Assembly (NCBI RefSeq): GCF_014295415.1
Contig: NZ_CP052909.1
Coordinates: forward strand, 1,116,001-1,180,000
Direction of reading: 5' to 3'
DNA: 64,000 nt
Origin: Constantimarinum furrinae
Lineage (GTDB): Bacteria > Bacteroidota > Bacteroidia > Flavobacteriales > Flavobacteriaceae
Positions 8,163 through 48,052 of this stretch are shown here, piece after piece. The notes under the pieces are model-generated. The model searched no databases. It saw only the letters and a list, made by a program, of their open reading frames with translations, and was not told the origin of the DNA. A program made the translations under genes and the position numbers. Each line of letters begins with the position of its first letter. Within the stretch, counting starts at the first letter, position 1.

Positions 8163-8201
8163 GTTAAACGAGCGTTAATTGAAGCGTTAATCTGTGTTAA
8201 T
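8163..8201 (+). promoter_or_regulatory. Four phased GTTAA repeats (LytTR-type operator candidate)
   Basis: GTTAAA at 8163, GTTAAT at 8174, 8186 and 8196, spaced 11, 12 and 10 bp. Alternate copies are 22-23 bp apart. Units such as AGCGTTAAT fit 8 of 9 positions of the LytTR regulator site [TA][AC][CA]GTTN[AG][TG], whose direct repeats are about 21-22 bp apart. The last copy begins 33 bp before the -7 element at 8229. The same arrangement recurs at 9130-9202. Confidence 0.6.
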
Positions 8202-8228
8202 AAGAAAATAATTGAAAGTGGAGTGGGT

Positions 8229-8236
8229 TATGTTTG
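8229..8236 (+). promoter_or_regulatory. -7 promoter element of the DUF4382 lipoprotein gene
   Basis: TATGTTTG is a perfect match to TAnnTTTG, 30 bp before the ATG at 8266. It lies inside a longer open frame beginning at 8212, which supports the ATG at 8266 as the real start. Confidence 0.65.
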
Positions 8237-8265
8237 CCGTACAAACCTATAAAACAAAAATAATT

Positions 8266-9063
8266 ATGAAAATGAAAAGAATCGCAAGTATTGCCTTTGC
8301 AGTATTGTTAGTCCTGGGATTTGTTGCATGTAGCAATGATGATTCCTCCGGGAATGTAGATGAAGGAACCGCGCGAATGTCGGTTAAACTCGTCGATGCA
8401 CCGGGAGATTATGACAACGTATTTATTGATGTCCAAGATGTCGTTATTAAGTACAATGGAAGTGAAGATGAGGTATCCATTGGTGAAGTTAATGGAGGGG
8501 TATACGATCTGCTTACGTTAACAGGTGGTTTAAGTGTCGTCCTTGTGGATGATGAAATCCCTGTCGGATCGATTAGTCAGATACGCCTTATTCTTGGAGA
8601 TAATAATACGGTGGTTGTCGATGGAGAAACGTATCCATTAGCTACCCCAAGTGCTCAACAGTCCGGGTTAAAACTTCAGGTAAATGAAACATTAGAAGCC
8701 GGAATATTCTATGAATTTATCCTCGATTTCGATGTGGAAGAGTCCATAGTTGTACAAGGGAATGGTAGCTATTCCTTAAAACCTGTAATTCGTGCATCAA
8801 CCACAGCCGAAACAGGGTCTATAAGCGGAGCCGTTTTACCATTAGGTTTCCAGACACTGGTTACAGCCGATAACGGAATTACCCAAATTTCTTCATATGT
8901 GAATGCTTCGGGAGATTTTGTTTTAAGTGGTGTTCCTGAAGGAACCTACACGGTAACCGTTGAAGCCGAACCACTTGCGGGATTGAATGCTGCTGTCGTA
9001 CAGAATGTAAATGTCACAGTAGGAGAGGTGACTACCTTAGGTACGATCGATCTGGAATTATAG
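8266..9063 (+). CDS. DUF4382 lipoprotein with carboxypeptidase-regulatory-like tail
   Basis: A 265-aa protein from the ATG at 8266; the open frame extends to a TTG at 8212, but that would encode the promoter region. The signal peptide ends FVAC with C22, followed by SNDDSS, so it is a lipoprotein, probably of the outer membrane. The next 150 residues (RMSVKLVDAPGDYDNVFIDV...) are a DUF4382 domain. From about residue 185 (GSISGAVLPLG...GVPEGTYTVTVEAEP) a beta-sandwich of the carboxypeptidase-regulatory type follows. The protein ends VGEVTTLGTIDLEL, a motif nearly repeated at the end of the next gene. Function unknown. Likely controlled by the GTTAA repeats upstream. Confidence 0.85.
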   Translation: MKMKRIASIAFAVLLVLGFVACSNDDSSGNVDEGTARMSVKLVDAPGDYDNVFIDVQDVVIKYNGSEDEVSIGEVNGGVYDLLTLTGGLSVVLVDDEIPVGSISQIRLILGDNNTVVVDGETYPLATPSAQQSGLKLQVNETLEAGIFYEFILDFDVEESIVVQGNGSYSLKPVIRASTTAETGSISGAVLPLGFQTLVTADNGITQISSYVNASGDFVLSGVPEGTYTVTVEAEPLAGLNAAVVQNVNVTVGEVTTLGTIDLEL

Positions 9064-9096
9064 CAATCGGCTAAATAAGGTCAACCAAAACTTAAA

Positions 9097-9125
9097 AAAG
9101 GAAGCGAACATCGCTTCCTTTTTTT
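9097..9125 (+). terminator. Rho-independent terminator
   Basis: An 11-bp perfect stem, AAAGGAAGCGA (9097-9107) with TCGCTTCCTTT (9111-9121), a 3-base loop and a T run. It separates the DUF4382 gene from the small secreted protein gene, so the two have separate promoters. Confidence 0.9.
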
Positions 9126-9129
9126 GTTC

Positions 9130-9167
9130 GTTAAAGCTTGTTAAATCAGCTGTTAATCAATGTTAAG
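9130..9167 (+). promoter_or_regulatory. Second set of four phased GTTAA repeats
   Basis: GTTAAA at 9130 and 9140, GTTAAT at 9152 and GTTAAG at 9162, spaced 10, 12 and 10 bp; alternate copies are exactly 22 bp apart. The last copy begins 33 bp before the candidate -7 element at 9195, the same distance as in the copy upstream of 8266. Confidence 0.6.
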
Positions 9168-9194
9168 TCCTAAGGTGTATCCCACCAAATCGGG

Positions 9195-9202
9195 TATATT
9201 TA
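9195..9202 (+). promoter_or_regulatory. -7 promoter element of the small secreted protein gene
   Basis: TATATTTA matches TAnnTTTG at seven of eight positions, 25 bp before the ATG at 9220. Confidence 0.45.
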
Positions 9203-9219
9203 AAATAAAATTAATCATT

Positions 9220-9603
9220 ATGAAAAATGTAATCACTTTAGCAGTATTAGCGCTTTTATTTATAGGGTTAAACGGATTTAATAAAGCCGAAGAAAAAGAA
9301 GGATATGACATCCCCGATCTTAAGATCGAGGTTTCCGATGAAAGCATCAAGACAGATGGTGCTATTTTAGGAAGTGTGATCGTGCCGGTAAATACCGAGG
9401 TATGCATTAATGTACATAACGACAAGACTTCAGTACGGGTTTATCCTAATGAACAAGGTGAATTCTTTATGAATGGCTTCGACCAGGATGTCTACGATAT
9501 AGAAGTGATCGCTACTCAAAACAATAAAACGGAAAGCTATATCATTGAGGATATTGAAATACGTATTGGAGAAGTTACCGCTGTTGGTACCATCGATTTT
9601 TAG
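9220..9603 (+). CDS. Small secreted beta-sandwich protein, partner of the DUF4382 gene
   Basis: A 127-aa protein from the ATG at 9220; an upstream in-frame ATG at 9160 would encode the operator and promoter and is rejected. The N-terminus MKNVITLAVLALLFIGLNGF is a signal peptide without a clear lipobox. The rest (SVIVPVNTEVCINVHNDKTS...FDQDVYDIEVIATQNN) resembles a carboxypeptidase-regulatory-like domain. It ends IGEVTAVGTIDF, closely matching the end of the DUF4382 lipoprotein (VGEVTTLGTIDLEL). Shared ending and shared promoter layout suggest the two act together in the envelope; no function is known. Confidence 0.75.
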   Translation: MKNVITLAVLALLFIGLNGFNKAEEKEGYDIPDLKIEVSDESIKTDGAILGSVIVPVNTEVCINVHNDKTSVRVYPNEQGEFFMNGFDQDVYDIEVIATQNNKTESYIIEDIEIRIGEVTAVGTIDF

Positions 9604-22359: not shown

Positions 22360-22568
22360 AGAAATTTCTTCAGTAAGATCAAAAGTACGGAAATAAGCGG
22401 GGAAATACATGAAATTGACGACTTCAAAAGACTTGAAATTTTGTCCGATAAGTATTTTACAGCCTGTACCGACTTCAGAAAAATAAATATAAAAAACTGT
22501 AAACTAGATACTTACATTTTTGGCATAGCTTTTGGAATTTATACAATGAAATGTTAAAACCCGGACCT

Positions 22569-23495
22569 ATGAAAACGATTAGACAATTTTTTGGATTTAC
22601 CTTGTTAGCCTTGTTGCTCAATTCCTGCTATAGCGAAGTGATAGTAGATGACCCACCGCATCATGGCGATCCGGTGAACACCGTTACCTTAGGGCAATTG
22701 CTTTCAGATTATGAACTATGGTATGTAGATATAGATCGTAGTGTTGGAAACGGCTATATCCCCTTTATGCAGAAAGCATTTACCATGTCGTTTAGAAACG
22801 GAACGGTGTACGCCAACAATAATCTGGTTGGAATAGGAGAGCAGGGAAATGGCTATGGAATTTCGGTTGGCTATTACGATACCTTCGATTTTATTTTGGA
22901 TATTTCTCATGATATTGATGGTTTTCACTCATTCGAGGTGACTCAGTTAAGCGGGAATGAAATTGAATTGTATTATGCGCCGCTCAATCTGTCTTATATA
23001 TTGGTAGGGTATCAACGTGGTACCTTCGATTACGACAAGGTGTTTTATGATAATATCCACTATTTTCTTCAGGAGTACGTGACCTGGGAAAAAACCTTCA
23101 CCAGCGTTTATGGAGAATTAAACGAGTTTGATAACGAAAACTTTGTTCAGTTCCTTCCCGGAGGTGGTGAAGATAATTTCAGAAGTTCTCAGGATCCTAG
23201 CGGAACCAATATATACGAACTGTATTGGGATTATACAGGAATTTATAATGTTGATGATGTACCGGGTGATTATTACCTGAAATATTTAACACTAGATTAT
23301 GATTATCTGGGCAATGAATACTTCGAACTGAGCGTTAATAATGACAGCACGATAGAATTGTTTCACGCTGCTTCCGGTACTTTATATCGCTTTACAGGAA
23401 GAGGATATATTCAGTACAAAACGCCCGGTGAAGGGAAGTTGCGGGAGTCTAAAGCGACGATCGCAAAACAAATGAAGAAGATCAGCAATTTTTAA
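22569..23495 (+). CDS. Lipoprotein, unknown function
   Basis: A 308-aa protein from the ATG at 22569; the in-frame ATG at 22551 adds six residues ahead of the signal. Signal peptide with lipobox LNSC at about residue 20, followed by YSEVIVDD. The mature protein is rich in Tyr, Asp and Phe (GTNIYELYWDYTGIYNVDDVPG) and predicted mainly beta. No conserved domain recognised. Similar proteins next to nadD in flavobacteria are sometimes mislabelled as adenylyltransferases, for which there is no motif here. Confidence 0.8.
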   Translation: MKTIRQFFGFTLLALLLNSCYSEVIVDDPPHHGDPVNTVTLGQLLSDYELWYVDIDRSVGNGYIPFMQKAFTMSFRNGTVYANNNLVGIGEQGNGYGISVGYYDTFDFILDISHDIDGFHSFEVTQLSGNEIELYYAPLNLSYILVGYQRGTFDYDKVFYDNIHYFLQEYVTWEKTFTSVYGELNEFDNENFVQFLPGGGEDNFRSSQDPSGTNIYELYWDYTGIYNVDDVPGDYYLKYLTLDYDYLGNEYFELSVNNDSTIELFHAASGTLYRFTGRGYIQYKTPGEGKLRESKATIAKQMKKISNF

Positions 23496-23553
23496 TATAG
23501 AAATTGCGTTACAATACTAACTTATAACAAGTTTTTGGTTGGTTATTTAGTTG

Positions 23554-23597
23554 AGCCGCTCCACAGTAATCTTATTGTCGGGGCGGTTTTATTTATA
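23554..23597 (+). terminator. Strong hairpin terminator
   Basis: GCCGCTCC (23555-23562) pairs with GGGGCGGT (23580-23587), and the interior ACAGTAA...TTATTGT extends the stem, allowing G-U pairs. TTTTATTTAT follows. It ends the lipoprotein transcript and sits at the 3' end of the convergent nadD. Confidence 0.75.
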
Positions 23598-32863: not shown

Positions 32864-33613
32864 ATGGCTCAGTCCTGTTTGCTTATTGAAGACGATGTGT
32901 ATACCGCCAGAGATGTGATGGAAACGCTCGAGGAGAATTTTCCTAACCTTAACTTGCTTCCGGTTGCGCATACTCTGGCTGAAGCGGCTAAAAGCTTAGA
33001 TAATAACGCTCCCGATCTGGTAATTTCGGACATAAATTTACAGGATGAGGTAGTGTTTTCCCTGTTTCAGCAATACGAAACGATCCCATTTAAGATTATT
33101 TTCATTACTTCGTACAGTCAGTATGCAGTGGAAGCCTTCCGTTTCAGTGCTTTGGATTTTTTGGAGAAACCGTTTGAAGATGAGGCGCTGGTGGCTGCGG
33201 TTAATCGAGCCATTACGACAATAAATCTCGAACATTACAATCTTCAGTTGCAAACGTTTTTTCACAACTTTAATCCCGAACAAAAACGAAAGAAGCTCGT
33301 GTTAAAAAACCTGGAAGCGATTCATATTGTTGAGGTTGGAGAGATTCTATATATAAAATCTGATAATAATTATTCAGAATTCTATATCAACGATGGCCGA
33401 AGAATTGTGGTTTCCAAACCCCTTAAACTTTACGACGATCAGCTGGGAGGACAATCTTTTTTCCGAAGCCATCAGTCTTATTTGGTAAATCTGCATTATG
33501 CCAAAACCTTTCACAAACAGGATAGTACGCTCGAACTCACCTCGGGAGAACAAATTGCAGTGAGCGGGACCAAGGTAAATGCCTTACTTCATAAAATTGA
33601 TTCCTTGTCTTAA
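32864..33613 (+). CDS. LytTR response regulator
   Basis: A 249-aa regulator. Receiver domain with acidic pair D10/D11, phosphoacceptor D56 (LVISDINL) and K102 (LEKPF); LytTR DNA-binding domain in the C-terminal 100 residues (EILYIKSDNNYSEFYI, FFRSHQSYLVNL). LytTR regulators bind imperfect direct repeats about 21 bp apart. Two candidate sites of that kind lie in this window upstream of 8266 and 9220, but whether this protein binds them is untested. Cotranscribed with the kinase. Confidence 0.94.
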   Translation: MAQSCLLIEDDVYTARDVMETLEENFPNLNLLPVAHTLAEAAKSLDNNAPDLVISDINLQDEVVFSLFQQYETIPFKIIFITSYSQYAVEAFRFSALDFLEKPFEDEALVAAVNRAITTINLEHYNLQLQTFFHNFNPEQKRKKLVLKNLEAIHIVEVGEILYIKSDNNYSEFYINDGRRIVVSKPLKLYDDQLGGQSFFRSHQSYLVNLHYAKTFHKQDSTLELTSGEQIAVSGTKVNALLHKIDSLS

Positions 33614-47278: not shown

Positions 47279-48052
47279 TTAGCTGAAAACGGATTTAAAC
47301 TGCTTGCTGTAATTACGGCTTAGCCGAAGCACTGTTCCGTTATTAAGGACAACGTCGTAATCTCCGTTATGTCGAGACCGGTAAGACGTTACGAATCCAA
47401 TGTTGACTATGGTGCTTTTGTGAATTCGGATAAATTGGTCTGATGCTTTTTCCAGCATAAACGCCTTTAATGAGCTGTTGTATAGATAGGTATTCTTACT
47501 GGTGACCAGAGCGATGTAGGGCGTTTCAGACCGTATGTACAGGATGGACCCGATGTCAACTAGAAATTTTCTGTTTCGGTGGGTTACCATTATTTTTTCT
47601 GAAGGCAGTTTATGTTTTGTTTCAACAGGAATGGGTTTTCTTTTCTGAAAAATTAAAATAGCCATACCATAGATCAGTAAACAGGAAACACCATGATCCA
47701 GTGCAGTATCTGAAATCAACCATAAAAATTTGAAGGTGTGAGCAAAAAAGAGCAGGGATATACTGAAGACCCATATGGAGAAAAGCACAATATGAGAAAT
47801 ACTTAAAAGGGTAATGATTATAATCTTATTCTGTTTTGCAAAACTAGTCACAAAGGGTTTCAGCCAAATAAGTATGGGAATAAACAGAAGCCAGAATGTT
47901 TCAAAAAGGATGGATTCAGAAAGGTAAAAACTATAGTCCTTTATCTCAGCAAGCAGGAGGTCCTTTCCCACTGCTGTAATTAAAATGGTTGCTGCGAAAA
48001 GTACTAGCAGCTTTTCTTTTTTAAGCTTGATTTCGAAAAATGGGGATACCAT
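47279..48052 (-). CDS. Membrane-anchored LytTR transcription regulator
   Basis: A 257-aa protein with four predicted membrane segments in the first 140 residues (LLVLFAATILITAVG, LFETFWLLFIPILIWL, IITLLSISHIVLFSIWVF, LFFAHTFKFLWLIS) and a LytTR DNA-binding domain in the last 100 (GSILYIRSETPYIALVT, FIRIHKSTIVNIGFV, LRLSRNYSKQFKSVF). It has no receiver domain, so it is not phosphorylated by a kinase in the usual way; membrane signals or a partner may control it. It follows the TPR protein by 75 bp, a gap with a 16-bp palindrome. Confidence 0.9.
   Translation of the reverse strand: MVSPFFEIKLKKEKLLVLFAATILITAVGKDLLLAEIKDYSFYLSESILFETFWLLFIPILIWLKPFVTSFAKQNKIIIITLLSISHIVLFSIWVFSISLLFFAHTFKFLWLISDTALDHGVSCLLIYGMAILIFQKRKPIPVETKHKLPSEKIMVTHRNRKFLVDIGSILYIRSETPYIALVTSKNTYLYNSSLKAFMLEKASDQFIRIHKSTIVNIGFVTSYRSRHNGDYDVVLNNGTVLRLSRNYSKQFKSVFS

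Follow-up and report, generated by a model that had tools for sequence, protein, structure and literature searches.

Candidate GTTAA operators of an RprY-like regulator upstream of envelope genes in Flavobacteriaceae

Two promoters in the window (the whole stretch of 64,000 nucleotides from Constantimarinum furrinae that was analysed) are preceded by arrays of four GTTAA units, and both are followed by genes of candidate envelope proteins. These arrays are best explained as operators of an RprY-like regulator of the OmpR/PhoB type, the partner of an RprX-like kinase; on comparative sequence evidence, we put the probability of this reading at slightly less than four in five. The GTTAA switch recurs at the same promoter distance upstream of rprXY-like genes, degP and a small RNA, and therefore the regulator is probably that pair. 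The predicted regulon probably comprises degP, the DUF4382 lipoprotein gene, genes of small secreted proteins, the regulator itself and, in some genera, the small RNA. Regulators of this kind are known, but the operator with its geometry across the class, the set of targets and the RNA arm appear to be new.

Arrays in the window and the core site

The arrays, the adjacent promoter elements and the genes behind them are listed in Table 1. The sequence-only reading of the window had described two four-unit arrays, each with its last unit 33 bp before a -7 box, and the coordinates bear this out. Triple GTTAA units with gaps of 4-8 bp produce four matches in the window. The arrays are not a chance occurrence, since none of 100 dinucleotide shuffles of the window contains even a triplet at such gaps. 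In Flavobacterium psychrophilum, the -7 box recognised by sigma-A is TAnnTTTG, located from -12 to -5 (PMC9723704).

Table 1. Positions of the GTTAA arrays, promoter elements and presumed controlled genes in the window, and small RNA loci in other genomes
Feature	Position	Strand	Remarks
Box A, four GTTAA units	8163..8200	+	unit starts 8163, 8174, 8186, 8196; spacing 11-12-10, one pair stacked on another; predicted operator of the RprY-like regulator
-7 element TATGTTTG	8229..8236	+	8196+33, i.e. 33 bp from the start of the last GTTAA of box A
DUF4382 lipoprotein gene	8266..9063	+	presumed controlled gene 1; Pfam DUF4382, E 1.7e-34
Box B, four GTTAA units	9130..9166	+	unit starts 9130, 9140, 9152, 9162; spacing 10-12-10
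-7 element TATATTTA	9195..9202	+	9162+33, i.e. 33 bp from the start of the last GTTAA of box B
Small secreted protein gene	9220..9603	+	presumed controlled gene 2; product can be aligned with the C-terminal portion of the DUF4382 protein
Small RNA loci, strong	L332-L361		
Small RNA loci, weaker	L362-L371		

The start of the DUF4382 gene is most likely the ATG at 8266, as judged by eye on the sequence. At its C-terminus the protein has a carboxypeptidase-regulatory-like domain (E 2.3e-7, slightly short of the Pfam cut-off). The small secreted protein does not belong to any Pfam or NCBIfam family at the thresholds applied. Its alignment with the C-terminal end of the DUF4382 protein covers 68 residues (26% identity, E 4e-11) and ends in GEVTTLGTID and GEVTAVGTID, respectively, so the common C-terminal motif that had been noticed earlier is real. 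Look-alikes of the small protein with a box upstream are encoded in G197 (L086) and G012 (L205).

The predicted core site consists of two GTTAA units at a distance of 10-11 bp, with the second unit usually 32-33 bp before TAnnTTT. This follows from the promoters of the degP/htrA genes, sampled as the 30 best matches plus 20 hand-picked ones out of 196 genomes with a match. The perfect four-unit box is present in 13 of these 50 promoters, but an exact pair with units 10 or 11 bp apart is found within 200 bp in 47 of them (0.1/50 in shuffles), and thus the four units are two stacked pairs. The second unit starts 32 or 33 bp before TAnnTTT in 37/50 promoters. The offset does not hold in 10 of the 47 promoters with a pair: in C. 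furrinae degP itself, as in nine others, the pair is present and no TAnnTTT is found at 32/33. The sites have the direct-repeat form expected of an OmpR/PhoB-type protein, that is, head-to-tail half-sites approximately 10-11 bp apart at a fixed promoter distance. As expected of an envelope-stress regulon, a periplasmic protease, degP/htrA, is under the site (47/50).

Since two 10/11-bp pairs are stacked, units of the arrays also stand in a 22-bp relation. It was this spacing of 22-23 bp that had earlier suggested LytTR control, in which LytTR proteins would bind two 22-bp direct repeats interleaved within each array. Indeed, the two LytTR proteins reported in the window (32864-33613 and 47279-48052) both have the domain according to Pfam, LytTR proteins extend beyond these two to a total of eight in the genome, and the units partially fit the LytTR consensus. 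However, in the minimal LytTR site two 9-bp repeats start about 22 bp from each other, whereas the widespread site is a single 10-11-bp pair, seen at rprX promoters and many degP promoters; the stacking of such pairs accounts for the spacing. Co-occurrence was counted for one of the eight proteins, the TM-LytTR protein 47279-48052. It has a match in 11 of 199 family genomes, including C. furrinae, and therefore cannot serve the sites family-wide. None of the eight LytTR loci contains a four-unit box with fewer than five mismatches in approximately 1.5 kb on each side. LytTR control is accordingly considered very unlikely. What stands of the regulon proposed in the sequence-only reading is a common, non-chance site for two envelope genes; its assignment to LytTR proteins is not supported, and the regulon extends beyond these two genes.

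The units are A/T-rich, helix-phased and located just upstream of promoters, and one could take them for a structural element of the promoter (UP-like or curved A/T DNA) rather than a regulator site. However, the exact pair-plus-offset pattern occurs 73 times in 25 family genomes, while reversed controls of equal composition are six times rarer (12). Besides, many sites stand before a few recurring genes. A purely structural role is hardly credible. In 15 genomes from other families of the order, the same pattern occurs 14 times against 7 controls, just twice the control level.

The candidate regulator

Three proteins with the OmpR/PhoB DNA-binding domain are encoded in the C. furrinae genome: PhoB, a membrane-anchored winged-helix protein and the RprXY-like regulator. 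The gene of the RprX-like kinase starts at G000:C1:2963485 on the minus strand, and the regulator gene is located directly after it. The best NCBIfam model for the regulator is RprY (282 bits, the next one scoring 171). However, the score falls below the RprY equivalog cut-off (281.9 vs 370 bits), and therefore the protein is termed RprY-like only.

The RprX kinase has a match in 195/199 family genomes, and the RprY-like regulator has a mean column identity of 92% over 15 genomes. The regulator frame follows the kinase in 29/30 family loci, the script having missed it in the other one. RprY-like regulators were found in 122/149 genomes drawn from the class, the own family included.

The rprX promoter of C. 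furrinae contains GTTAAN6GTTAA, whose second unit lies 33 bp upstream of TACTTTTG. Among the 30 best-matching of the 195 family genomes, this pair is exact in 28 (0.1/30 in shuffles) and has one mismatch in two; the second unit is 33 bp before TAnnTTT in 29 promoters and 32 bp in one. A set of titled records includes Kordia algicida, Gillisia limnaea and Leeuwenhoekiella marinoflava (best 80 of 578, with genomes partly shared with the family sample; two were dropped for want of a kinase start). Here the exact pair is present in 75/78 cases (0.15% in shuffles), with the offset 33 in 65, 32 in four and unread in six. Of the three records without the exact pair, two resemble miscalled starts and one has a mismatch.

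Outside the family, 20 stretches were hand-picked from other families of the class, and 17 of them have a kinase frame. The pair is found in 11/17, and in 10/17 it is also separated from TAnnTTT by 26-29 bases (0.2% and 0 in shuffles, respectively). The RprXY system of Bacteroidales (NCBIfam NF051850 for RprY) likewise has a regulator composed of a receiver and a winged-helix domain and the gene order kinase, then regulator. Among the genomes of this sample that pass the curated RprY cut-off, the same GTTAA pair with the offset 33 precedes rprX in 2/4 cases, and two have no pair; the C. furrinae regulator differs from this group in scoring below the equivalog cut-off.

Absence of the kinase can be compared with absence of the degP pair. 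In G179 (99% complete) both are missing: RprX has no match, and degP has no pair upstream. On the other hand, two of the three degP promoters without the pair (G027, G086) are in genomes having RprX, and G058 (80% complete), with no RprX match, has yet kept its degP pair. This co-loss is weak support, as it is seen in one genome, G179, amid the exceptions G027, G086 and G058. A further genome with no RprX match is G035 (91% complete).

The other two proteins with the same DNA-binding domain, PhoB and the membrane-anchored winged-helix protein (G000:C1:2417303), have to be weighed as alternative binders. Tandem 11-bp half-sites are typical of the OmpR/PhoB-type domain and would suit either of them. 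The own promoter of the winged-helix protein has GTCAA/GTAAA units about 11-11-10 bp apart. However, five of 20 positions are mismatched in this promoter, the 200 bp upstream of phoB contain GTTAACGTTAAC at 6 bp but lack a 10/11-bp pair, and the conserved pair is located before rprX. Binding by either protein is considered improbable, and the RprY-like regulator is retained as the candidate.

Two observations concern related regulatory genes. The winged-helix regulator (L041:871-1734, promoter L041:801-838) is membrane-anchored and has no receiver domain, and it may be a separate envelope sensor. Genes of a second histidine-kinase type (L026, L215, L217, L218) have tandem GTGTTAAC-like units 10 bp apart upstream; in L026, the kinase gene is divergent from the gene of a protein with the GLPGLI motif (by eye). 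These genes may belong to a paralogous system whose operator is related. Given GTTAAC repeats at a second kinase gene, cross-talk is possible.

Candidate targets and the small RNA

In the whole 2.99-Mb single-contig genome of C. furrinae, both strands considered, there are six GTTAA triplets and one reversed control; four of the six belong to boxes A and B. One triplet, at G000:C1:1473387 (L005), directly adjoins an amidohydrolase gene at its 3' end, points into this gene and was set aside as a chance match. When the spacing was fixed at 10-12-10 and at most three mismatches were allowed, four matches were obtained (one in the control), namely boxes A and B and a site at G000:C1:2434063 matched on both strands. 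The latter consists of three GTTAA units and ATTAA (one mismatch), and TATATTC is located 33 bp downstream of the point where the fourth unit starts. The gene behind it encodes a 120-aa protein with a signal-like start and no Pfam or NCBIfam family match.

The exact pair with the offset occurs at six sites in this genome, including those of both window genes and rprX. The others precede genes of an lmo0937-family membrane protein of 52 aa, whose box is also found in G012 and G007, of a 108-aa protein of no known family and, doubtfully, of a 214-aa protein with the site 233 bp upstream of its start.

The family survey covered 199 genomes, one per genus, and used the fixed four-unit pattern with at most two mismatches. 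It produced 86 matches in 72 genomes, vs 43 for the reversed control. Among the 73 matches inspected, 22 are upstream of the degP/htrA protease gene, 17 upstream of a conserved RNA followed by a DUF3108 gene, five upstream of DUF4382 lipoprotein genes (C. furrinae included), two upstream of the gene of the window's small protein or its relative, and two upstream of that of the 120-aa protein or its relative. The 25 matches without a recurring neighbour were taken as background, since they are fewer than the 43 reversed controls. Single sites in relatives precede genes of a Dps-like protein, an MscS-like channel and other small membrane proteins (names assigned by eye).

Of 84 genomes having a match to DUF4382, the best 30 supplied the promoters. 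All 13 closest ones (the own promoter included) contain the four-unit box with at most 4/20 mismatches (0.1/30 in shuffles). TAnnTTT is found at 33 in seven of them, at 32 in one, at 34 in one, and not nearby in four. The exact pair is absent from 13 of the 17 more distant promoters, and is present in 16/30 overall. The sequence-only reading had staked its regulon on orthologous promoters of close relatives keeping the repeats and the 33-bp spacing: the former is borne out in full (13/13) and the latter in 7/13, and the exact pair is mostly absent from the more distant promoters.

The stretch upstream of DUF3108 genes was initially considered as a 5' leader; this was rejected, as it is a separate RNA with its own terminator. 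In some genera this boxed RNA is 98-101 nt long, up to the sixth T of the terminator, and consists of a 5' hairpin, a second hairpin, the invariant single-stranded UUUGGUUGGUUAUUUAGG, and a terminator hairpin followed by a T run. The core is TTTTCATAATTTAAAGTTTnGGTTGGTTA, with one or two deviating loci. Among 34 predicted pairs, five changed on both sides with the pairing kept; the terminator accounts for four of these and the 5' hairpin for one. The covariance model of this RNA (R1) scores at least 80 bits in 31/199 genomes. Nine weaker matches inspected in other genomes have the same core.

In the strong loci, the exact GTTAA pair is present upstream in 30/30 cases and never in shuffles. The last GTTAA starts 45-49 bp before the RNA 5' end in 29/30; in L360 the script placed the box differently, and by hand a pair is found at approximately 48 as well. 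This spacing fits an RNA start 12 nt after the T of TA, since the -7 box is at -12 to -5 (PMC9723704). A DUF3108-like frame follows the RNA in 29/30 strong loci. The loci tested have no Rfam match at curated thresholds, and five weak sub-threshold matches were taken as chance. With the stricter filters that were applied to more than 40 genomes, the C. furrinae genome has no match to R1.

A possibly related element is located in the window at 23530-23596 on the forward strand. It contains TTTGGTTGGTTATTTAG, identical to 17 nt of the single-stranded stretch of the small RNA, followed by a terminator-like hairpin, and adjoins the 3' end of a lipoprotein-like gene (22551-23495). There is no GTTAA pair in the preceding 230 bases. 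The element folds better than shuffles (z -3.2).

Possible mechanism and related systems

The kinase would sense an envelope disturbance, leading to phosphorylation of the RprY-like regulator. One dimer may bind each head-to-tail GTTAA pair, with half-sites 10-11 bp apart, about one helical turn; four units would then hold two dimers. The proximal half-site usually starts 32-33 bp upstream of TAnnTTTG, at a distance of about 45 bp from the transcription start. As this position suits contact with RNA polymerase, we infer activation: judging from the promoter geometry, the phosphorylated regulator is rather likely to activate these promoters in response to an envelope signal.

The CpxAR and BaeSR systems of Escherichia coli are envelope-stress systems with OmpR-type regulators and degP among the targets, and the CpxR box is GTAAAN5GTAAA. 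The likeness consists in the regulator type, short tandem direct repeats and the degP target. However, the C. furrinae regulator scores 112 bits with CpxR and 135 bits with BaeR vs 282 bits with RprY, and the promoters here are of the TAnnTTTG type. Another parallel is the PhoP box of Bacillus subtilis, formed by four TTAACA-like units about 11 bp apart. PhoP/PhoB boxes likewise contain four phased half-sites for two dimers, and TTAACA is the reverse complement of TGTTAA; the recurring targets here are instead envelope genes and rprX.

RprY of Porphyromonas gingivalis, whose kinase partner is lost, shifts its own promoter and promoters of stress genes in EMSA (PMC3646045), and is described as a repressor of chaperones and nqrA (PMC3646045, PMC6032018). 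This reported repressor role runs counter to the activation proposed here. The words motif and consensus are absent from both P. gingivalis papers (PMC3646045, PMC6032018). Full-text literature searches, with most subscription journals outside their coverage, found no description of a GTTAA operator for these bacteria.

To our knowledge, little is known about envelope-stress control in Bacteroidota. One possibility, to which we give somewhat less than an even chance, is that the class Bacteroidia uses RprXY as its general response to envelope stress, the counterpart of Cpx and sigma-E. The system would be autoregulated via GTTAA repeats, with degP as the protease arm and with DUF4382 lipoproteins, small secreted and membrane proteins and perhaps Dps and MscS as the envelope arm. 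In a set of Flavobacteriaceae genera, a trans-acting RNA of approximately 100 nt would silence envelope mRNAs in the manner of RybB and MicA of enterobacteria. An operator with fixed geometry, a candidate regulator and a list of targets make the regulon directly testable, and connect RprXY with degP as well as with a small RNA for which the loci tested have no Rfam match.

The RprY-like regulator is also predicted to autoregulate the rprXY operon. Many rprX promoters have an extra GTTAA approximately 10 bp before the -7 box, which could permit negative feedback. Besides the direct repeats, rprX promoters have an inverted symmetry, TTAACATTT ... AAATGTTAA, for example within 60 bases upstream of the start of the kinase gene at L051:2986 (minus strand); it extends to the -7 region and was seen by eye in many loci. 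Finally, degP and rprX are approximately 27-32 kb apart in G000, G114, G019 and G172, in G000 across the contig ends (degP at 8515 and rprX at 2963485 of C1), and this linkage may be wider.
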